Below, piece after piece: positions 9,993-64,000 of a stretch of DNA of 64,000 bases; the stretch's first letter is position 1; each line of letters begins with the position of its first letter. The notes under the pieces are model-generated. The model saw only the letters and a list, made by a program, of their open reading frames with translations, was not told the origin of the DNA and made no database searches. A program made the position numbers and the translations under genes. Source of the stretch: Bacillota bacterium (GTDB taxonomy: Bacteria > Bacillota > Negativicutes > DSM-13327); contig JAGFZX010000004.1 of NCBI GenBank assembly GCA_017889585.1, positions 1 through 64,000 on the forward strand. Direction: 5' to 3'.

Positions 9993-10410
9993 ATTCACAG
10001 CCCCCTAAATATTTCTTTATTTGTACTATTAGAGCATCTACCAAATGAGGAAGTGGCTCAGTTTGCAGTCCTATAATATCAATATTCCCCCGATAGATAG
10101 GTATTAACAATTTACGCGCCTTACTATTCATTATTGCTTCTGCTATTTTAGGTGTAAGCTCGCCAAGCATTGAATTCGCCATAATAATACTCAATGAACC
10201 TATAATCAACTCACTATCTTTACTATTATATACAATCGCATTCTCACCTGTAGCACCTTCATTGGCTCCAGCCTTCAGCATAGCAGAAGTTGCTAGCGCA
10301 TTCGTTCCTAAGGCGAGGATATCAATCTGCTCCCGAAATTCTTTCCTCATTTTTTCAATAATGACTTTCCCCATACCTCCACCTTGTCCATCAATCACTG
10401 CAATACGCAT
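9979..10410 (-). CDS. DUF3842-type protein with N-terminal glycine-rich nucleotide-binding-like motif
   Basis: 143 aa. It starts MRIAVIDGQGGGMGK, resembling a Rossmann or P-loop start, and continues ILALGTNALATSAMLKAGA and GENAIVYNS. I recognise it as the DUF3842 family, whose function is not known. GGGAGG lies 5 nt before the ATG at 10410. The last 14 nt overlap cooT, so the two are translationally coupled, which suggests a shared role that may involve nickel. Confidence 0.75.
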   Translation of the reverse strand: MRIAVIDGQGGGMGKVIIEKMRKEFREQIDILALGTNALATSAMLKAGANEGATGENAIVYNSKDSELIIGSLSIIMANSMLGELTPKIAEAIMNSKARKLLIPIYRGNIDIIGLQTEPLPHLVDALIVQIKKYLGGCEYVRS

Positions 10411-10546
10411 AGTTACCTCCCAGACCAATTTTAACATATCCTACCTTTTTATGTTAAATGATACTCGATACAAAATTCTACATCTCAGATTGATTTTCCT
10501 CTATTAAACATTACTTTACTCTTTGTGTATCTTACATACCTTAATT

Positions 10547-27296: not shown

Positions 27297-27373
27297 TGGT
27301 GACCCCGGAGGGATTCGAACCCCCGACCTATTGATTCGAAGTCAAACGCTCTATCCAGCTGAGCTACGGAGCC
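27297..27373 (-). tRNA. tRNA-Arg (anticodon TCG)
   Basis: Minus-strand cloverleaf: acceptor GGCTCCG/CGGGGTC, D arm GCTC...GAGC, anticodon loop CTTCGAA giving TCG (reads CGA), T arm GGGGG-TTCGAAT-CCCTC, encoded CCA. The anticodon stem has one T-T mismatch at its outer pair. The 3' side faces the broken integrase. Confidence 0.96.
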
Positions 27374-40582: not shown

Positions 40583-40602
40583 CTTCTGTAATATGCAAAA
40601 AC

Positions 40603-40699
40603 CCTATCGTTCCCTACGCTGGCATTACCCAGATCAGGTTAAAGGGTCATAGATTTCATCAGATCTATCTCTCAGCCGGCCTTTCTAGCTCCCCTTGAC
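40603..40699 (-). promoter_or_regulatory. TPP riboswitch (THI element)
   Basis: Minus strand contains GGCCGGCTGAGAG, GACCCTTTAACCTGATCTGG and GTAATGCCAGCGTAGGGAA, the conserved thi-box core. It controls thiD-cytX-thiM. Confidence 0.97.
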
Positions 40700-40761
40700 A
40701 CATCAACTATTCTTTTGATGTTCATATTAACATATTTGGCTTATATTCTCAACCACAAAAT

Positions 40762-55300: not shown

Positions 55301-55660
55301 TTAACGCTTCCACCAACTATAGATAGCTAACAGACCACCTAATATCGTTGTTAATCTTTGGTATTCCTTAATTGTTTGAAATGTTGCTAAGATATATATT
55401 AATCCCCCAATCATCGCTACTGAAGCTAAGTAATACATTACCCTCTCTACTTTAGACCTATTAGTTGGCGCCTTCTTTGGAAAAATCCTTTTATACCATG
55501 GTGCTGAGCCAAGTGGCTGCCCCCTCGTACTACGCAAAATTTTCTCATCAATAACAGGAATAGGCTGAGTGTCTCCCGAACGATCTCTGAGTTGCCGACC
55601 ACACTTACGGCAGTATCTTACATTATAATGAATTTTATTACCGCAAAAATCACAATACAT
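55301..55660 (-). CDS. Zinc-ribbon membrane protein
   Basis: 119 aa. N-terminal zinc ribbon CDFCGNK...YCRKCGRQL (two CxxC pairs), a basic linker, then two membrane helices (about 70-110). The ATG at 55660 has GAGG 5 nt upstream. Widespread small zinc-ribbon membrane proteins of unknown function. Confidence 0.8.
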   Translation of the reverse strand: MYCDFCGNKIHYNVRYCRKCGRQLRDRSGDTQPIPVIDEKILRSTRGQPLGSAPWYKRIFPKKAPTNRSKVERVMYYLASVAMIGGLIYILATFQTIKEYQRLTTILGGLLAIYSWWKR

Positions 55661-55796
55661 AATTGCCTCGCACAATAATTTTTTTCTAGTTTTCCCAATA
55701 TTTTCAAAATAAATCATGAACTTAACATCCGCTCTACTAAAACCTCCGTCTGGTCATAAAGGAAACTTGTCTTGCGCTACAATTATCCACTCTAGC

Positions 55797-55828
55797 GCAA
55801 AAAACCGCATCCCAAAGATACGGTTTTA
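55797..55828 (-). terminator. Terminator of the poly-gamma-glutamate operon
   Basis: AAAACCGTATC...GATGCGGTTTT followed by TTGCG, 64 bp after the response-regulator stop at 55892. Confidence 0.85.
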
Positions 55829-55891
55829 AATAAATATTATATGGGGATGCTGATACCCATACAATGTTTATTTCTTAAAGAATAGGACTAT

Positions 55892-56515
55892 TTATAACTT
55901 ATATTTATATTTATTGCGTGGCCGTCCGACTTTTCCATAATCACAGATCACAAACAATTCATCCTTAGCAACCATGTATTGCAGATAACGAACTGACGTC
56001 TGATAGGCTAACCCCACATTTCGTGCTACATCTTCAATATAGAATCCATCTGGCGCCGAAATACAATAATCTGCTATCATCTGCAAGGTAACTTGATTAA
56101 TCCCTTTACTAACCATGAAATGCTCTTGAACTTCACGCTGTTTTTCCAATAATTTAAGATGAACATTAATTCTCGCTACAAGATCAGGAACTCGAATCGG
56201 TTTATTCGCAAAATCATTAGCTCCTGCATCTAAAAATTCGTCAGCAAGTTCTTGACGGTCGTCAACTGTTAAAACAATAATAGGAACCTTTCTATCTATT
56301 GTCCGTATCTGCTTTACTGTTACTATCCCATTCTGCTGGGGCATATGGTAATCCATCAATATTAAATCAGGCTTTAGTGTTTTCACCTTACTTACGCCCA
56401 CAATACTATTAGGCTCGGTATAAATATGCCAGCCTACGGTTGCTCCAATCGCTCCTATCGTATAAAGAATATCTTTATCATCATCAACTACTAATATCGA
56501 TGTTTTTTTCGCCAT
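55892..56515 (-). CDS. Response regulator with CitB/DcuR-like winged-helix output
   Basis: 207 aa. Receiver (about 5-120): acidic VVDDDKD, phospho-Asp in LILMDYHMPQQNG, Lys in ANKPIRV. Output (about 140-207): helix-turn-helix with VARNVGLAYQTSVRYLQYMV then DYGKVGRPRNKY, the pattern of CitB/DcuR regulators that control dicarboxylate use. It starts 4 bp after the sensor kinase stop and is the last gene of the pgs run. Confidence 0.93.
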   Translation of the reverse strand: MAKKTSILVVDDDKDILYTIGAIGATVGWHIYTEPNSIVGVSKVKTLKPDLILMDYHMPQQNGIVTVKQIRTIDRKVPIIVLTVDDRQELADEFLDAGANDFANKPIRVPDLVARINVHLKLLEKQREVQEHFMVSKGINQVTLQMIADYCISAPDGFYIEDVARNVGLAYQTSVRYLQYMVAKDELFVICDYGKVGRPRNKYKYKL

Positions 56516-56519
56516 ACTA

Positions 56520-57869
56520 CTACACCCCCGGCAACGTAATTATAACTTTCGCTCCACCATCAACATTGTTACCAATACCAATTTGGCCACCATGTTTCTC
56601 AATGACATTACGTACAAATGGCAAACCCAGACCAGAAGATTTTTTCGTGGAAAAACCGATCTCCCAAACCAGTACACTCTGATCCTCCATAAGGCCCTGT
56701 CCATTGTCGATAACAACAATAGATACCTCGCCTCCCTCAATTTTTTCCACTACAACACGAATACAGCCTGTATCTTTTTCTACCGCTTCGAGAGCATTTT
56801 CCAAAATATTTATGATCGCACGTGTCAATTTAATTTTGTTAGCATGTACTAATGAGTTGTCCTTTATAATCAAATGAAACTCTGCAATACTATTAAGCTG
56901 TGGTACATGAGCCACTGCATATTCAATCAATTCTCTGATTGCTATAATCTGTTTACTATCATCCTGAAGCAATTCATTAATCATTACATTCATTTTATCT
57001 ACCATATCACTGATATAACTAGCGTGTTTCTTAACCACTTCTTGATTATCAGAAATAGCAATCACTCCTGCCAAACCTTGTATACTTGTTAACGGAGTTT
57101 TCAAATCATGAACAAGAGACTGTATCTCCCTAAGGGATCTGTTTTCGATACTTTGCAACTGTAGCTGATTATTCAAATGTTCAATTTCCAAAGCATGCTC
57201 CACAGCCTTAATTTCTCTCATATAAATATTAAGTAGTCGGGCAATAATAAATGCATTACCTACAAAAATAATACAAAGACAAATACCAGTAACGTTCAAA
57301 AAATTATCCGCTGTATTTAGCAGAGCAATATCCTTTAAATACATTGATACATTACCCCGTCCAAAGCCATATGCTGTTAAAAACGGTACAATATCTAACC
57401 ATTCTACACCAAACAGCAGTAATGTAAATACTGTGACTTTATGTACAACACTGCGAGCCATATTGCGGTTTCTATTTACAATCATAATCGCAAAAACCAA
57501 CGTCATAGCTGGAACTCCAAAATCATAAGCAATATTATAAATCAGATAAATGACTTGATAAATAACGGGAATTAGGAATAAAATAAATATTTTAAACCAA
57601 CGACTACGTTTTGTATCAAAAATACCTAATCCTTCACCAACTAACAGTATCCCAATATAAATAGGCAGCGCACGCAAGGTATTCAGTACCACCAACCGTA
57701 CAGAAGCAAACAATAAGCTTGCAGTACTGCCTGTAGCAATACTGTGCTCAGCGAAAGGCAATATGCCAAAATCTTTAACTTTTATCATCCAAGGAGCCAA
57801 TAACCCCAGTATGACACAGCTTATTCCCCAGATAATCAAACGTCGATTCCCTTGTACGATAACGCTCAT
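56520..57869 (-). CDS. Multi-TM sensor histidine kinase of the pgs operon
   Basis: 449 aa. About seven membrane helices in residues 1-215, with no sizeable periplasmic domain, then a short coiled coil, the phospho-His in LVHDLKTPLTSI and an HATPase (NILENALEAVE, DNGQGL, SGLGLPFVRNVIE). It likely senses something in the membrane or cytoplasm. The ATG at 57869 overlaps the PgsW gene's stop codon region by 4 nt (ATGA). The next gene is its response regulator. Confidence 0.92.
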   Translation of the reverse strand: MSVIVQGNRRLIIWGISCVILGLLAPWMIKVKDFGILPFAEHSIATGSTASLLFASVRLVVLNTLRALPIYIGILLVGEGLGIFDTKRSRWFKIFILFLIPVIYQVIYLIYNIAYDFGVPAMTLVFAIMIVNRNRNMARSVVHKVTVFTLLLFGVEWLDIVPFLTAYGFGRGNVSMYLKDIALLNTADNFLNVTGICLCIIFVGNAFIIARLLNIYMREIKAVEHALEIEHLNNQLQLQSIENRSLREIQSLVHDLKTPLTSIQGLAGVIAISDNQEVVKKHASYISDMVDKMNVMINELLQDDSKQIIAIRELIEYAVAHVPQLNSIAEFHLIIKDNSLVHANKIKLTRAIINILENALEAVEKDTGCIRVVVEKIEGGEVSIVVIDNGQGLMEDQSVLVWEIGFSTKKSSGLGLPFVRNVIEKHGGQIGIGNNVDGGAKVIITLPGV

Positions 57870-58876
57870 AGCTTCCACCACACCTTCTGCTTGCCATACC
57901 ACATACACACTACAACACCAATAATCCAAACAGCAATCATCACCCGTAAATATAAGGGTACCCTGATAGACCAAAACACTCGGCTATGACCCACTTCTCC
58001 AGAATGTATATCATAATGAGCAGCTAATCGATTTATGTTAATAAAATGAATTACTCCACGATTGGAATTTATAAACTCTGCCGCCAATCCTCCTGTTATG
58101 GGATGATAAGGCTGATACCCCTGTGTTAATCCCTGACGCAGCAACGCATCATGTCCATGTTCACCAAAGATAACATGGCTACCACCAACATTGACCAACA
58201 CTTTGGGCAAACTCCCATTATTCTTAGTCTTATACAGTTCTATGCGCCTCTGAATAGCATCTGCAAGGGTACTACCACCAATTAGAGGTACTCCTGAACG
58301 TTCAATCGCAACATCTATCATTGCCAATCCTTCAGCAGTCAATCCATTTCCCTGATCCTCTCCGCCACCACGCCCTACAGCACTAGATCTCCAGGACCAA
58401 ACTCCCTCATCAATCAGCATTTTCTCCATATCAAGCCAAGTAAAATCCGGTCGATTTGCCCCCCATGTAGAAGCACCCACTGAACTTACGATAACTGGTT
58501 TTGCCCCGATAGCATCAATTGCCGCTATCACCGCAATATTTAAAGCTGGAAATGAACTTGACATATTTACAGCTACATTATCACCAGCATGTACTCCTGC
58601 ACTATGGAGCATATCCACAGCAACAGCAGCAAAGTCTGGATTAGTCGATAATATTTTAGCATCATGAGCCCCGAGGGTAGTGGTAATAGGAGTATACTCT
58701 TCACCAATCAGCATTGGACCAATTACTTTTTGCGCCTGAATTGCCATTAAAGTAGCATTCATCTTGGTATTATAATCCTGGCTATACTGCCAAGAAGTAA
58801 GTTTGGAGCAAATAAGAAAAAACAACACATTAACTGACAGCAATACTATAGCAGGAAGATTTCGCTTTGCTACCAC
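57866..58876 (-). CDS. Poly-gamma-glutamate system protein, PgsW type
   Basis: 336 aa. One N-terminal membrane helix (about 8-27), an extracytoplasmic domain (GAKPVIVSSVGASTWGANRP, LPKVLVNVGGSHVIFG) and a C-terminal helix (about 312-330). It belongs to the uncharacterised family that accompanies PgsB and PgsC in some diderm Firmicutes and Fusobacteria, in place of PgsA. The GTG at 58876 has GGAGGGG 5 nt upstream and overlaps pgsC's TAG by 7 nt. Its role in the complex is unknown; a polymer export or anchoring role is inferred. Confidence 0.75.
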   Translation of the reverse strand: MVAKRNLPAIVLLSVNVLFFLICSKLTSWQYSQDYNTKMNATLMAIQAQKVIGPMLIGEEYTPITTTLGAHDAKILSTNPDFAAVAVDMLHSAGVHAGDNVAVNMSSSFPALNIAVIAAIDAIGAKPVIVSSVGASTWGANRPDFTWLDMEKMLIDEGVWSWRSSAVGRGGGEDQGNGLTAEGLAMIDVAIERSGVPLIGGSTLADAIQRRIELYKTKNNGSLPKVLVNVGGSHVIFGEHGHDALLRQGLTQGYQPYHPITGGLAAEFINSNRGVIHFININRLAAHYDIHSGEVGHSRVFWSIRVPLYLRVMIAVWIIGVVVCMWYGKQKVWWKL

Positions 58877-59307
58877 AGCATCCCCTCCCCAGCCAAAACA
58901 ATAAGGCGAGTCATTAACACTGCAACCGTCAGCCACAGAATCGTCCAGCCAATTCCTTGACGCGAAAAATCTCGCGCAATCAATCCTGGAATCAAATAAC
59001 CAATGATCATAATTCCATGATCTGATATGGATCTAACCATAAATAATCCAGAAATCATTTGGCTAATGACCATTCCCGTAATAATATATATAGCAAATAG
59101 TCTTCTACCATATAGCAGCATATGTGATTGGACTTTTTTTACAATTCCATGTGTCAGTAATGCGATGATCATCGTTCCTATTAACCAACTGGGCTGCAGG
59201 GCAAACATCGCCAGATAGCCAGCAACAACAACTCCACCTGCCGAAAATCCAGTAAATTCTGTAATTAAGAGAGAAACCGCAATTCCGGAGAACAAAAATA
59301 CATGCAT
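58870..59307 (-). CDS. pgsC: Poly-gamma-glutamate synthase subunit PgsC/CapC
   Basis: 145 aa, about five membrane helices, with the family's SGIAVSLLITEFTGFSAGGV near the start and GYLIPGLIARDFSRQG near the end. PgsC forms the synthase with PgsB. It starts 5 bp after pgsB's stop and overlaps the next gene. Confidence 0.92.
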   Translation of the reverse strand: MHVFLFSGIAVSLLITEFTGFSAGGVVVAGYLAMFALQPSWLIGTMIIALLTHGIVKKVQSHMLLYGRRLFAIYIITGMVISQMISGLFMVRSISDHGIMIIGYLIPGLIARDFSRQGIGWTILWLTVAVLMTRLIVLAGEGMLW

Positions 59308-59312
59308 AAACC

Positions 59313-60461
59313 TTATCCTCCGCTCAAATTCCCCATAAATTCTTGGGGTAACCCTTTCATATTTCCTGCTGCGAAAATAATAATTCGATCCTCAGAGCAT
59401 TTTTCTATAATAGATTCCAATTCACTAAACTTTGGCTTGTCGGATAAACAATATATCTCACCCGATTCCTTGCACAACTTCTTCAATAACGAACTGGCAA
59501 AATCTCGATCCCCAGCCACAACAAAACTACCTTTATGAACGGAACTTAACATTTTACATAATTGAGCAGTACGATACTGTCGATCTGAACGACAATTAAG
59601 CAATACAACTGCTCTGCCCTCTAACGGCATGCAATGATTCCAGAGCCATAAAGTTGATTCTGGATCATTGGCAGCTAGTGCATTGACAATGGTCACCCTT
59701 TTATTACTCACCATTAATTCTGTTATCGTTAAGTTTCCAGCATCCGCAGTAGCTTTACGCATACCATCAATCGCTACCACAACATCAACCCCAGCTAATT
59801 CACAAACCCTTAACGCAATAGCCACATTATCTGGAATAATCTCATACCCAAAATCTTGCAAATATGTAGCGTCCAATTGTTCGCCAGCAACTGCAAACAT
59901 TTCCGTCCCGCCAATAACTGGTTCCAATAATGTTCTAGCTTCCTGCGTAGTAACAAGTTTTCCATTCTCTGGAATGGTATTACTAAGGGCCATGGCAATT
60001 TTTTCAAGACCATCCCCCATTACATCTTCGTGATCGGCTCTGATATTTGTAATAACGCCAATATGAGATTTAATCAAACGGCTCTCGCAAAACTTTTGCA
60101 GTTCAGGGTTTATTGCCATACACTCCACAACAATGGCATTAGCACCACAAGCAACTGCCTGCTTTATCACACTAATATTTTCTATTATATTAGCAGGGCC
60201 TTTACGCTTAATATATTGCTCACTACCATCAGGAAAAATCATTTTAGCCTCAGTACCTGTTGTTTTGCCAACTACTTTGTATCCACCAGCACCAAGTCCT
60301 GCCGCAATCAGTCGTGTTACACTAGACTTGCCTCTCGTACCATTGACATGAATACGTAGTGGTAACTTTCGTAAATTTTTCTCATGATTACTAGCTTCCA
60401 AATAGAAATACCCATACATTACCAACAACACTATAGCATAAAAATATATTTCATTATTCAT
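59313..60461 (-). CDS. pgsB: Poly-gamma-glutamate synthase subunit PgsB/CapB
   Basis: 382 aa, amide ligase of the Mur-ligase superfamily that joins glutamates by gamma bonds. N-terminal membrane helix, then ATP site VNGTRGKSSVTRL (about residue 39), IRADHEDVMGDG and a C-terminal Mur-ligase-like domain. First of the tightly packed pgsB-pgsC-pgsW-kinase-regulator run. No pgsA/capA or pgsE is visible. Confidence 0.95.
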   Translation of the reverse strand: MNNEIYFYAIVLLVMYGYFYLEASNHEKNLRKLPLRIHVNGTRGKSSVTRLIAAGLGAGGYKVVGKTTGTEAKMIFPDGSEQYIKRKGPANIIENISVIKQAVACGANAIVVECMAINPELQKFCESRLIKSHIGVITNIRADHEDVMGDGLEKIAMALSNTIPENGKLVTTQEARTLLEPVIGGTEMFAVAGEQLDATYLQDFGYEIIPDNVAIALRVCELAGVDVVVAIDGMRKATADAGNLTITELMVSNKRVTIVNALAANDPESTLWLWNHCMPLEGRAVVLLNCRSDRQYRTAQLCKMLSSVHKGSFVVAGDRDFASSLLKKLCKESGEIYCLSDKPKFSELESIIEKCSEDRIIIFAAGNMKGLPQEFMGNLSGG

Positions 60462-60520
60462 TACAAACTAATCAGCCTCACTTGCCAGCCTTTAATAAAA
60501 CTTCTGTTACCATATCGTTA

Positions 60521-61351
60521 TCATTTATCAATAACACCCTGGCTAGATACTAGAAATTTAGCAATTTCAAAACTGAAATTCACTCGATCTTCAAGTGGCT
60601 GATCACTACTTGTTTCTACTGTAAAAGCTGGAACTTTTAATACTGTATTGGCATAATGAACCGTACTGCCAACGATAGGATTGGCGAGTACCGAAAATTT
60701 CTTTTTTGCCTCGGTAATTTGCTTGTTAATATGCTCCACTGCATCCATAGCTAAAAGAGCACTCGTATCATCCGTACCTGGCAAAATAGTCTCACCAACC
60801 GATTTGGAATCTACAGCATTAAAGGCATATCCTTCATGCAAATCAAGTACCATCGCCACCTGATATTTTTTCATCAACTGAACGATATCATAAGTAAGCC
60901 TTTCTGCGGGAGTACCATCGCTTTTCCCAGGATAAGCACGATTCAAATCTTCTATTTCAGGCAATGTGCGTTCATTGGCATCTAGCGCTACATTATTCGC
61001 CCTAGGAATGACAATTAACTTACCCCTCAGTACTGGTATCTCCATAAATTTACTTGCGGCTAACGAGCCGGCTGGCTCATTGCCATGGATACCACCCACC
61101 ACCATAACAGTTGGTCCTTCTATAACAGATTCATAAATATATGCCTTGCTCGTATATGGAGTACCTGGTACCAACTCTACGACGGTCTTCTTAACCTCGG
61201 CCCGTGGTTGACCCACTTGAGCTGTTTGACTATCTTGACTGCTCGAACTAGAACTTTGATTGCCTACAGTTCCACAACCAGTAAAAAAAATGATTATACT
61301 AAATAATACACTAATCCACAAAATAGGTTTTTTATCAAAATTCGTTATCAT
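60521..61351 (-). CDS. Lipoprotein AstE/AspA-like zinc hydrolase, candidate polyglutamate-degrading enzyme
   Basis: 276 aa. Lipoprotein signal ending FFTGC, a Ser-rich tether, then the succinylglutamate desuccinylase/aspartoacylase fold: zinc ligands in VGGIHGNEPAG (HxxE) and LDLHEGYAF (His), catalytic Glu in AFTVETSSDQ, and DLNRAYPGK. The M86 phage enzyme PghP, a related carboxypeptidase-like fold, hydrolyses gamma-polyglutamate, which makes that role plausible. GAGGG lies 10 nt before the ATG at 61351. It sits 59 bp before pgsB. Confidence 0.82.
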   Translation of the reverse strand: MITNFDKKPILWISVLFSIIIFFTGCGTVGNQSSSSSSQDSQTAQVGQPRAEVKKTVVELVPGTPYTSKAYIYESVIEGPTVMVVGGIHGNEPAGSLAASKFMEIPVLRGKLIVIPRANNVALDANERTLPEIEDLNRAYPGKSDGTPAERLTYDIVQLMKKYQVAMVLDLHEGYAFNAVDSKSVGETILPGTDDTSALLAMDAVEHINKQITEAKKKFSVLANPIVGSTVHYANTVLKVPAFTVETSSDQPLEDRVNFSFEIAKFLVSSQGVIDK

Positions 61352-61403
61352 TATATATAATCCCTCTATTACATTTTTAATAATAATAATTCCATAATAA
61401 AGT

Positions 61404-61440
61404 TTCTGCTGTGTCACGAATGTAACACAGCAGATTTTTT
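61404..61440. terminator. Hairpin between the two hydrolase genes
   Basis: TCTGCTGTGT...ACACAGCAGA perfect stem with TTTTTT on the plus-strand side; on the minus strand only AAACTTTATT follows. It may reduce read-through or mark an RNA-processing site within the operon. Confidence 0.55.
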
Positions 61441-62551
61441 ATAGATAAGCTCCCATGCCCTTTGCTGTAAGCTCTTGATATGTAGGAAGATTTATAATCT
61501 TAATCTGTTGTGGCATTTTTTGATTATATACATTGACTAATTCCATGATAGCAGATACATGTCTAGCTACTCGCACCTCAATAGGATGGCCCTGCTCATC
61601 AAATGGTACAAACAATCGTCCCATTTTGCCAGCTTGCACATATAAGGGATCACGACCATTTAAAATGCTTTCGTCACTAATTTTACCACGCAAACGTCCT
61701 TGTGCAGGATTAGAGGTTTCCATCAGTATCGCAAGAGTATCGGTAGCATCTCCCCATTCTCGGTGAGATAAACCACGTAGCTTAACAGGAGATGGTTCAA
61801 TTCTCATATCTACGGCATCCATCTGTAAGTTCATTGTGGCTTCTGCGGCAATATCCATTGCTCGGTCATGAGCAACAATAGCATTAATAACGGGATACTC
61901 AGGGGATGCTTCATGTAGGTCAATCGACATATTGACTTTTTCACTTTTAATTACTTGCATAATACCATATGCCACTTTTTCGGTCAGATTACCATCAGGT
62001 CGACCAGGATATGCGCGATTTAAGTTCCGCGTATCACTACCTGCTAAGGTTTGTCCTGAACCACTATGTACATAAATGTCAGGATCTGGCCACTGGTCAA
62101 TCGGATTGGTGGCACGTGAACCATAACGGAAAGTTCTGTCACCTTGAGCTGTTTGGATTTTTAAATAAGATGGAGTCCCTTCCATATGATCAGAATGACT
62201 AAAGGCACTATTATTAGCCCTTGGAATAATGATCATCCTGCCTGTAGTTAGTTTAGCATTTTCAATCATTAAAATTGCACTAAGATAACCTGATGGTTCG
62301 TTAGGATGAGTCCCCCCAAGCACCATAAGCGTTCCACCTGGGTTACCACTATCTAAGACATAGATATCTGTATCACCACTTGTGCCTTTTAAATCTGCAA
62401 AATAATCACTTAAATGCTTGATTACTGTAACGCCTGCCCCTGATTTAATTATCTCTGGAGTCTCCCGGGCAATAAATGCGGGAGTGACAACCCCAATAAT
62501 CGCTAAGACAAAAACTAATAAAAAGCTCGCCGTTTTATAACTTCCTTGCAT
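61439..62551 (-). CDS. Exported AstE/AspA-like zinc hydrolase, second paralogue
   Basis: 370 aa. N-terminal hydrophobic signal/anchor (about 8-28), then the same fold: zinc ligands in LGGTHPNEPSG (HxxE) and SIDLHEASPEY (His), catalytic Glu in LMETSNPAQ, RNLNRAYPGRPDG. Longer than the lipoprotein copy, with an insert after the first motif and a C-terminal extension. GGAGG lies 8 nt before the ATG at 62551. It follows the 48-aa membrane protein by 13 bp. Confidence 0.82.
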   Translation of the reverse strand: MQGSYKTASFLLVFVLAIIGVVTPAFIARETPEIIKSGAGVTVIKHLSDYFADLKGTSGDTDIYVLDSGNPGGTLMVLGGTHPNEPSGYLSAILMIENAKLTTGRMIIIPRANNSAFSHSDHMEGTPSYLKIQTAQGDRTFRYGSRATNPIDQWPDPDIYVHSGSGQTLAGSDTRNLNRAYPGRPDGNLTEKVAYGIMQVIKSEKVNMSIDLHEASPEYPVINAIVAHDRAMDIAAEATMNLQMDAVDMRIEPSPVKLRGLSHREWGDATDTLAILMETSNPAQGRLRGKISDESILNGRDPLYVQAGKMGRLFVPFDEQGHPIEVRVARHVSAIMELVNVYNQKMPQQIKIINLPTYQELTAKGMGAYL

Positions 62552-62564
62552 TATCAATACCTCC

Positions 62565-62711
62565 TTACACTACCATAAACAATCGCAATATAAATGGAAT
62601 CAGTGTCATAGCTGCCATACATTGTATCTTAATGTCTTTTTGTGTGAACATTTCCCACATTACAGCAACTAATACTAATAGCACAATCAGCTGATAAACC
62701 ACTTTCATCAT
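62565..62711 (-). CDS. 48-aa membrane protein between permease and hydrolase genes
   Basis: MMKVVYQLIVLLVLVAVMWE, a charged turn (MFTQKDIK), then a second hydrophobic helix (MAAMTLIPFILRLFMVV). GGGGG lies 8 nt before the first ATG. The gap on both sides is about 12 nt. It could be a tiny accessory subunit of the permease, taking the place of DctQ, but no family is recognised. Confidence 0.75.
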   Translation of the reverse strand: MMKVVYQLIVLLVLVAVMWEMFTQKDIKIQCMAAMTLIPFILRLFMVV

Positions 62712-62723
62712 ATCAATTACCCC

Positions 62724-63995
62724 CTAAAATATAATTTTGGCAATGGGTTCCGCAAAAACAAGCATTAGCACACCAACTACAAGGGCAAATAGGATAGGAA
62801 CAAAACAAGGGCGAATCAGCTTGCCATAATTCGGTTCACCAATAACTTGTGCCGCAATGGTAGGTGTCAATGCTACCGGTGGCATAAAACTACCCATAGC
62901 CGCAATCAGAGATAATGCTGAGATTGTAATAATTTGGTTTGAGCCAAGTAGAGCCAAGGCAAATGGCACACCAAGTACGCTCGCCGAACCAAATACTGAA
63001 ATCCCACCAAAAGCTGGCATACTAACCACAATGCCAACAAGCATTAAATACGCTGGTATACTGAGCATGTTTACAACAATAAAACCACGTAATCCAATCA
63101 ATGTCATAATTTCGATTAACATTCCAACACCAATCAACAAGCTAACAACAGGTAGGATCTCACTCACACCCTGCTTAACAGCCTGAGGCACGTTAAGCTT
63201 ACGACCAGTGAAAACAGCAATAATAATAGCTACTAAAAAGGTCGGTGGCATACCTGGATCAGGGATACTTTGAGGGAAAACTTTAGGGAAAATCATTAGA
63301 ATCAACATGACAATGAGTGGTGAATAAAGGAGTAAACTGCTTTCGGTTTTTTCTTGCCTCAGCTTTGCTACAAGGCCTTTCAAATCTGCTTTTTTTGCAT
63401 ATGAATAACCTAAGTACAACGTGGTAATAATGGCTAGTGGAACTGTTACCAAAAATAACACCGTGTTAAATCCCAAATAAGGAACATCCATACCAGCTCC
63501 AATAATCATCACAATAATATTAACAGGTGGAGCAATCATGCCATAAACTGAAGCCATAGTGATAACGGCTCCTACAATATGCCTTGGCATGTTTAGCTGC
63601 AATAATACTGGCGCCAATAAAACCCCCGTACTCAGTACCGACGCTGCACAAGAACCTGTAATTGCACCTGGGAACATAATCAACAGGGTAATAACAATCA
63701 AAAATGTTATCGGTGAATCGCCGAATTTTAAAATCAAATCTCTAGTTAAAGCATTCAATAAACCATTTTTTTCGATAACCTTCATAAATATCATAGCAGT
63801 GATTAATACCAAAGACACATCCAAATAGCCAAACATACCATTTATGAGGTTTTCTAATATTGTTAAATTAAAATGACCTGCTGTCAAAGCAAGAACAATA
63901 CTTGTAATCGCTAGAGAAAAACCTACAGGCATTTTTAGCCACATTGCCAATCCCGCAAAAGTTGCAAGCATTAAAATTAATAGAAATATTTCCAC
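62724..63995 (-). CDS. TRAP-type large permease (DctM family); start near right window edge
   Basis: 423 aa, about 12 membrane helices. The DctM-like segments MFPGAITGSCAASVLSTGVL, ASVYGMIAPPVN, and the C-terminal GSFMPPVALTPT are visible. It imports organic acids, probably driven by an ion gradient. DctP and DctQ partners are absent downstream; they may lie upstream, outside the window. The GTG at 63995 is the first visible start, and no in-frame stop is seen in the 5 bases before the edge, so the start is not certain. Confidence 0.85.
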   Translation of the reverse strand: MEIFLLILMLATFAGLAMWLKMPVGFSLAITSIVLALTAGHFNLTILENLINGMFGYLDVSLVLITAMIFMKVIEKNGLLNALTRDLILKFGDSPITFLIVITLLIMFPGAITGSCAASVLSTGVLLAPVLLQLNMPRHIVGAVITMASVYGMIAPPVNIIVMIIGAGMDVPYLGFNTVLFLVTVPLAIITTLYLGYSYAKKADLKGLVAKLRQEKTESSLLLYSPLIVMLILMIFPKVFPQSIPDPGMPPTFLVAIIIAVFTGRKLNVPQAVKQGVSEILPVVSLLIGVGMLIEIMTLIGLRGFIVVNMLSIPAYLMLVGIVVSMPAFGGISVFGSASVLGVPFALALLGSNQIITISALSLIAAMGSFMPPVALTPTIAAQVIGEPNYGKLIRPCFVPILFALVVGVLMLVFAEPIAKIIF

Positions 63996-64000
63996 AGATA

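Follow-up and report, generated by a model that had tools for sequence, protein, structure and literature searches.

Poly-gamma-glutamate (PGA) is known as a capsule, as slime and as an industrial polymer, and the genes for its synthesis, degradation and regulation are usually described separately. On a 64,000-nucleotide (nt) stretch of contig JAGFZX010000004.1 from a bacterium of the class Negativicutes (hereafter the window), a run of genes encodes the synthase proteins PgsB, PgsC and PgsW together with two zinc hydrolases (Hyd1 and Hyd2), a DctM-like permease, a membrane protein of 48 amino acids (aa), a histidine kinase and a response regulator. Do these genes constitute one system that makes, cuts, re-imports and senses PGA, as an earlier reading made from the sequence alone had proposed? 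We find that the run is part of an eleven-gene locus, for which the making and recycling of PGA is the best explanation and, in our judgement, a probable one. That the genes for making, cutting, re-importing and sensing form a functional unit is well supported; the sequence-only reading went too far in extending control to the whole cycle and in placing the run under shared transcription.

Gene content of the locus

The window represents bases 1-64000 of contig 82 (108238 bases) of a 4.24 Mb genome in 134 contigs that is 84% complete (G000). All nine genes of the sequence-only reading were found where it had placed them, every one on the minus strand, and eight of the nine were matched by family models, the 48-aa protein being the exception (Table 1). 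From PgsB to the regulator, successive genes are joined by a 5-nt gap, two overlaps and a 4-nt gap, which agrees with the tight packing described earlier. The window ends inside the cluster: two more genes on the same strand (locus L013), encoding a DUF6305 lipoprotein and a gamma-glutamyltransferase (GGT) lipoprotein, lie just beyond position 64000, and the full locus comprises these two and the nine in the window. The true start of the DctM gene is at the window edge or slightly past it. The kinase reading frame as listed has a TTG start 109 nt within the PgsW gene; judged from the sequence, translation more likely begins at the ATG at 57869, which overlaps the stop codon of PgsW.

Table 1. 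Features of the locus, with positions in the window or, for the last two genes, on the contig
Feature	Position	Strand	Evidence
Response regulator, CitB/DpiA-like	55892-56515	-	Response_reg 77.6 bits
Multi-transmembrane histidine kinase	56520-57974	-	HisKA 34 bits, HATPase_c 66 bits
PgsW	57866-58936	-	TIGR04332 257 bits (cut-off 100); overlaps pgsC
PgsC, membrane synthase subunit	58870-59307	-	TIGR04011 100.2 bits (cut-off 96.5); PF14102 97.5 bits
PgsB, Mur-ligase-like PGA synthase subunit	59313-60461	-	TIGR04012 369 bits (cut-off 223)
Hyd2, lipoprotein, AstE/M99-type zinc hydrolase	60521-61417	-	AstE_AspA_cat 63.5 bits; Peptidase_M99 36.5 bits (cut-off 27)
Hairpin at the Hyd1-Hyd2 junction	61405-61434 (L013 6406-6435)	-	Scan and fold
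Hyd1, membrane-anchored zinc carboxypeptidase-fold hydrolase	61439-62557	-	AstE_AspA_cat 32.5 bits
Small membrane protein, 48 aa	62565-62711	-	Homologues in extended clusters
DctM-like multi-transmembrane permease	62724-63998	-	PF06808 42 bits (cut-off 23.8)
DUF6305 lipoprotein	64119-64745 (contig)	-	DUF6305 153 bits
GGT lipoprotein	64975-66705 (contig)	-	PF01019 541 bits; TIGR00066 526 bits (cut-off 358)

The ATP-binding loop of PgsB reads GTRGKSS. PgsW passes the cut-off of the PgsW-type system model by a wide margin and is encoded next to pgsC. Its AlphaFold2 (AF2) model is confident (predicted local distance difference test score, pLDDT, 91) and has two transmembrane helices (residues 27-46 and 328-348) flanking a large alpha/beta domain, yet matched no PDB fold at E<=0.001 (best TM-scores <0.3), so no function can be read from the fold. 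Because PgsA is missing from PgsBCW loci, PgsW is likely a third synthase subunit in its place. The absence of PgsA and PgsE reported earlier holds for the cluster, in which family-model scans found no PGA_cap (PgsA/CapA) protein, but not for the genome as far as PGA_cap is concerned: one such protein is encoded, unlinked, on contig C102. The permease had been called TRAP-type; its DctM membrane subunit was matched, but the same kind of scan found neither DctP nor DctQ among the cluster genes. Neither DctM nor DUF6305 had a meaningful match among solved structures.

Conservation and co-occurrence

The complete block runs GGT, DUF6305, DctM, 48-aa protein, Hyd1, Hyd2, PgsB, PgsC, PgsW, kinase, regulator. 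With small changes this order is kept in extended clusters of several Negativicutes families, Clostridium tetanomorphum DSM 4474, Marinisporobacter, Tepidanaerobacter and other Bacillota, although some of the relatives' contigs end before the upstream genes. Gut Clostridia (Oscillospiraceae, Lachnospiraceae and Eubacteriales) retain DUF6305, DctM, Hyd1 and PgsBCW; the kinase, the regulator and Hyd2 are missing there, and GGT is replaced by a C69 peptidase. A homologue of the 48-aa protein directly follows DctM in every extended cluster for which DctM is available, from Negativicutes to Clostridia, and we therefore regard this small gene as real; its product is probably a partner of the permease.

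PgsW is encoded in 12 of 381 Negativicutes genomes. A strong Hyd1 match (E below 1e-180) was present in 11 of these 12 and in none of the other 369 (Fisher p 2e-20, uncorrected for kinship); the sole PgsW genome without one, G041, is 73% complete, and Hyd1 is likewise missing from PgsW-negative genomes of the same families. A PgsW tree places the 15 proteins from extended clusters and the two of G030 and G041 in a single clade (support 100/100), in which the only core-type member, that of KSB1 (L052), sits on a long branch. Hydrolases and permease are thus co-conserved with pgsBC, the outcome on which the sequence-only reading had made its proposal depend.

These patterns bear on two alternatives. 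An ordinary pgsBC locus might merely lie beside unrelated hydrolase, transporter and two-component genes, and the hairpins that divide the run into separate units (see below) would fit such an accident. The recurrence of the same order across families and phyla argues that the arrangement is not due to chance, however, as do the near-perfect co-occurrence and a specific element shared by the clusters; the Hyd1-PgsW test already contradicts a chance neighbourhood, which we consider highly improbable. Alternatively, the locus might feed mainly on gamma-glutamyl polymer or peptides of other bacteria, with PgsBCW making little polymer, perhaps no more than a short oligomer that primes the sensor. 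Glutamate-fermenting hosts, three exported hydrolases with a permease, and the position of the element ahead of the cutting and uptake genes all suit such scavenging. If scavenging were the only role, however, the synthase should frequently be missing, whereas Hyd1 never occurs without PgsW in the Negativicutes sample, and DctM with Hyd1 is found away from pgsBC only in two distant non-Firmicutes loci (L107, L108), which makes a scavenging role improbable.

Two further clusters are unusual. One, in a record titled as a Comamonadaceae metagenome-assembled genome (Pseudomonadota; L063), has two GGTs, two Hyd1 copies and no kinase or regulator, and reflects either transfer or a mis-binned contig. 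In G386 (L107:3439-8647), which has its own pgsBCW locus elsewhere, the interval from GGT to DctM-Hyd1 encodes another PgsW-like protein, only remotely related (118 bits).

Putative degrading enzymes

The cluster GGT is the only GGT found in its genome. It has the catalytic Thr395 and lacks the lid loop: at the lid position it aligns without gaps to Bacillus GGTs and with a 10-residue gap to the E. coli enzyme. GGTs of the other clusters are likewise lid-less, while the remaining GGT-family proteins sampled from the class either have the lid or belong to a distinct type. Lid-less GGTs have been described as the PGA-degrading type, and the B. subtilis enzyme came to favor glutamine over PGA once a lid loop was added (PMC8062742). 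By these sequence features, the cluster GGT would be a PGA-degrading enzyme of the Bacillus type.

A different role for GGT is suggested by its relative CapD, which anchors PGA in B. anthracis (PMC8062742). In a scheme of capsule maturation, a CapD-like GGT would attach PGA to peptidoglycan or the envelope, Hyd1 and Hyd2 would trim chains to length or free misplaced ones, and the permease would recover nothing but by-products; all three hydrolases indeed look envelope-bound through lipoboxes or a transmembrane anchor. By sequence, however, the cluster GGT is far nearer to the GGTs of Bacillus and E. coli (E 4e-124 and 7.5e-117) than to CapD (3e-51), and anchoring needs no permease, fermentation operon or separable uptake-plus-sensor module. 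We consider capsule maturation unlikely, though it is the strongest of the alternatives.

The AF2 model of Hyd1 (pLDDT 89) starts with a helix at residues 7-32, and its Foldseek matches are M14/AstE enzymes (best E 3e-8). H84, E87, N178, R181, H215, E216 and E280 are invariant among 19 Hyd1 sequences. The model confidently predicts Hyd1 to be a membrane-anchored zinc carboxypeptidase of the M14/AstE type. Hyd2 has an FTGC lipobox, and H111, E114, R160, H194 and E195 are invariant among 15 sequences. Profiles, the Hyd1 fold and the invariant residues agree on the features of the AstE/AspA-M14 enzymes, namely an HxxE...H metal site, a substrate-binding Arg and a catalytic Glu. The nearest solved structures to Hyd2 by profile are Csd4 and AstE-like enzymes. 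Csd4 cuts the gamma-D-Glu-mDAP (meso-diaminopimelate) bond, and by analogy with this nearest relative a gamma-glutamyl substrate is plausible for Hyd2.

The same kinship opens another possibility: the product of PgsBCW might be a different molecule, gamma-linked or of the envelope, with Hyd1 and Hyd2 acting on peptidoglycan stem peptides, which also contain a gamma-D-Glu bond. Csd4 is a peptidoglycan carboxypeptidase, PgsW lacks a solved structural relative, and the Francisella capBCA genes, considered below, are without a shown polymer. PgsB, on the other hand, scores well above its equivalog cut-off, and a lid-less GGT and embedded glutamate-fermentation genes suit a polymer of glutamate. 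A product other than PGA therefore appears very unlikely, slightly more so than scavenging.

Kinship of the hydrolases with the M86 phage hydrolase PghP, which had been suggested earlier, was rejected. Neither Hyd1 nor Hyd2 matched PF05908 (PghP/M86) at E<=0.01, and the 50 best fold matches to Hyd1 do not include PghP. The enzymes are kin at most at the superfamily level: PghP, a zinc peptidase related to carboxypeptidase A (PMC4497714), belongs to the same broad fold group as Hyd1.

A 23-bp element and probable transcription units

Upstream of GGT and/or DUF6305 we recognized a 23-bp element, AGATAAAWAWGAKAAAAARTAGG, in which GAKAAA is directly repeated at a spacing of about 9 bp and which usually ends 49-115 bp ahead of the start codon (in one case 318). 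It precedes GGT and/or DUF6305 in every cluster with a kinase and regulator for which upstream DNA is available. As the element was spotted by eye in these upstream regions, its presence there is not independent evidence, and its genome-wide specificity and its occurrence in genomes added later are the tests. In scans allowing up to two mismatches, the 4.24 Mb source genome contained exactly two sites, both at GGT/DUF6305, at contig positions 64816-64838 and 66779-66801. Two sites each were found in G036 and G045, four in G028, and one each, all in the cluster, in G059, G079 and G087. In Marinisporobacter every site had two mismatches, and two of these sites lay in the cluster. The G391 cluster contig begins at DctM, and the best site of that genome precedes a GGT on another contig. 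No sites were present in the four genomes that have the cluster without kinase and regulator. As controls, 14 clusterless relatives gave two weak matches and the reversed pattern gave about ten in 40 genomes; a shorter version of the pattern had six matches in core-type loci (926 kb).

The simplest reading of this distribution is that the element is a candidate binding site of the cluster regulator. The regulator, tentatively of the CitB/DpiA type, has a clear receiver domain and adjoins the histidine kinase; its DpiA-like HTH_64 match (18.7 bits) is under the cut-off of 27. The sequence-only reading had the two-component pair control the entire cycle. Since the element precedes GGT and DUF6305, the pair probably controls cutting and uptake and not every part of the cycle.

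Genome G030 shows that the locus is modular, the uptake and sensor module being separable from the synthase: Hyd2-PgsB-PgsC-PgsW lie on one contig and DUF6305-DctM-Hyd1-GGT-kinase-regulator on another (L109). Its one element site precedes the uptake module, with none before the synthase.

The hairpin between Hyd1 and Hyd2 in the source genome has a perfect 13-bp stem (-21.4 kcal/mol, z -7.4) and is terminator-like with a weak U tract. At this junction, folding energies range from -21 to -35 kcal/mol (z -7 to -10) for the strong hairpins of G000, G036 and C. tetanomorphum, and the GGT-DUF6305 interval of the source genome has a further one of 16 bp. In G045, a group II intron with a reverse transcriptase (L021:5939-7757) is inserted just past the Hyd1-Hyd2 hairpin; in the sister genome G036 the hairpin is present but the intron is not. 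Some bacterial group II introns (class C) target terminators. Because hairpins occupy this junction in three lineages and an intron lies just past one of them, the predicted organization is probably at least two transcription units rather than the single transcript assumed earlier. Matches in a sigma-70 promoter scan were no more numerous than in shuffled sequences and were left unused.

In G028, the element also stands upstream of each of two similar small secreted proteins (L113:244-567 and 10140-10442; Ada_Zn_binding in the one scanned), of an SLH-domain OmpM-like gene (L113:11808) and of an AAT-family hydrolase gene (L178, about 1501). An outer-membrane porin and a further amide hydrolase may thus belong to the regulon in this genome.

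Glutamate metabolism and proposed function

In G028, the interval from GGT to Hyd1 contains, on the strand of the cluster, a set of methylaspartate-pathway genes, those for GlmS, GlmL, GlmE, methylaspartate ammonia-lyase and citramalate/citrate lyase CitDEF. The whole cluster is present in strain DSM 4474 of C. tetanomorphum, a species that is a classic fermenter of glutamate by the methylaspartate route (PMC4682846), and in G036 an Asp/Glu racemase gene follows the regulator. Glutamate mutase as a genome-wide partner was rejected as weak (4 of 12 PgsW genomes vs 37 of the other 369; p 0.03, uncorrected for kinship). Because only 4 of 12 PgsW genomes have the route, methylaspartate fermentation is one use of the system and not a defining part.

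Taken together, the genes would work as follows. PgsB, PgsC and PgsW would polymerize glutamate through gamma-carboxyl bonds and pass the chain across the inner membrane. Outside the cytoplasm, membrane-anchored Hyd1, the lipoprotein Hyd2 and the lid-less GGT lipoprotein would cut it to oligomers and glutamate, which the DctM-like permease and its 48-aa partner, perhaps with the DUF6305 lipoprotein, would carry inward and which glutamate-fermenting hosts would catabolize. The multi-transmembrane kinase would act as the sensor, and the CitB-type regulator would bind AGATAAAWAWGAKAAAAARTAGG at GGT and DUF6305 and thereby switch cutting and uptake. The GGT, the operator-like element and the fermentation operon of G028 add weight to the cutting, feeding and sensing parts.

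Several points weigh against this explanation. All members of the cluster are known here from their genes, PgsC clears its equivalog cut-off (TIGR04011) by a narrow margin, and the DctM family match is modest. Hyd1 and Hyd2 could act on peptidoglycan peptides instead, binding of the regulator to the element is read from co-occurrence, and the methylaspartate link is not universal. The main caution comes by analogy from Francisella capBCA, the third gene of which has the same family name and for which no PGA has been shown and no capsule role found (PMC2897883, PMC4688374). We nevertheless regard a PGA make-and-recycle locus as the best explanation of the eleven genes.

A more specific and tentative idea, possible but clearly less probable than recycling as such, is that the locus provides anaerobes with an extracytoplasmic glutamate store: surplus glutamate would be polymerized as PGA and later cut, re-imported and fermented under a private two-component system and operator. 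If true, PGA would be a rechargeable reserve of carbon, nitrogen and energy rather than a capsule, a question that becomes directly testable in the culturable C. tetanomorphum DSM 4474. The recycling explanation also suggests what three unexplained parts, namely PgsW, DUF6305 and the 48-aa protein, might do, and the cis element makes the regulon visible in any genome.

The individual parts are of known kinds. For the combination of PgsBCW, permease, AstE/M99 hydrolases and a private two-component system with its element, we found no description in the open-access literature (most subscription papers were outside this scope), in line with the sequence-only reading, which knew of no such described system; within these limits the conserved combination appears undescribed. 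The same literature gave nothing on DUF6305 or on PGA in connection with C. tetanomorphum, and nothing useful for Negativicutes.

Neighbouring genes and RNAs

Past GGT, the contig encodes an SbmA/ABC transporter and an SDH_alpha-type protein; neither was seen in related clusters, and both are probably outside the system. Downstream of the regulator, a small zinc-ribbon membrane protein (55301-55717, minus strand) is not next to the clusters of the relatives examined. The window also has ordinary RNAs, all on the minus strand: a thiamine pyrophosphate riboswitch (40593-40705), a cut-off cobalamin riboswitch (1-102) and tRNA-Arg(TCG) (27297-27373).

Comparison with known systems

PgsB-C-W also occurs in core loci of Cloacimonadota, Eisenbacteria, Zixibacteria, KSB1 and others, which have the same synthase and no hydrolase, permease or kinase. 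There, two genes for secreted proteins come after PgsB-C-W, for instance in L035, L043, L044, L053, L054, L070, L076 and L093: X, of about 300 aa, is present in 54 of 66 loci, and Y, of about 370 aa, in 47 of these 66. X and Y are absent from all extended clusters and had no Pfam match over the cut-off in those scanned; they might be a polymer export route in diderms. By eye, Y resembles an outer-membrane barrel.

Francisella capBCA has the same order of B, C and a third gene, which goes by the name that NCBIfam gives to TIGR04332, 'poly-gamma-glutamate system protein' (PMC5362203); the likeness to PgsW is one of family name, not of sequence comparison. Only three synthase-type genes are described there, unlike the eleven-gene block. 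In the B. anthracis cap operon the synthase is linked to a GGT-family enzyme, as here, but that enzyme, CapD, anchors the polymer to peptidoglycan, and the operon has neither permease nor zinc hydrolases. Hyd2 scores above the M99 and AstE cut-offs and shares conserved metal-binding and Arg residues with Csd4 (M99) and AstE/AspA/DoeB, the genomic context of which differs from its own.

A close parallel may be drawn with B. subtilis pgsBCAE, PgdS and Ggt, with which the locus has the PgsB/PgsC synthase core in common. The lid-less GGT of B. subtilis degrades PGA to glutamate at starvation (PMC8062742), and its pgsBCA genes are under two-component control by DegSU and ComPA (PMC5751247). The cluster differs in having no PGA_cap gene beside pgsBC, in having PgsW instead of PgsA/PgsE and AstE/M99-like hydrolases instead of PgdS, and in that the locus itself includes a permease and a dedicated kinase and regulator with their own element. 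In these anaerobes, the genes for synthesis, cutting, uptake and control make up one conserved, partly modular unit.

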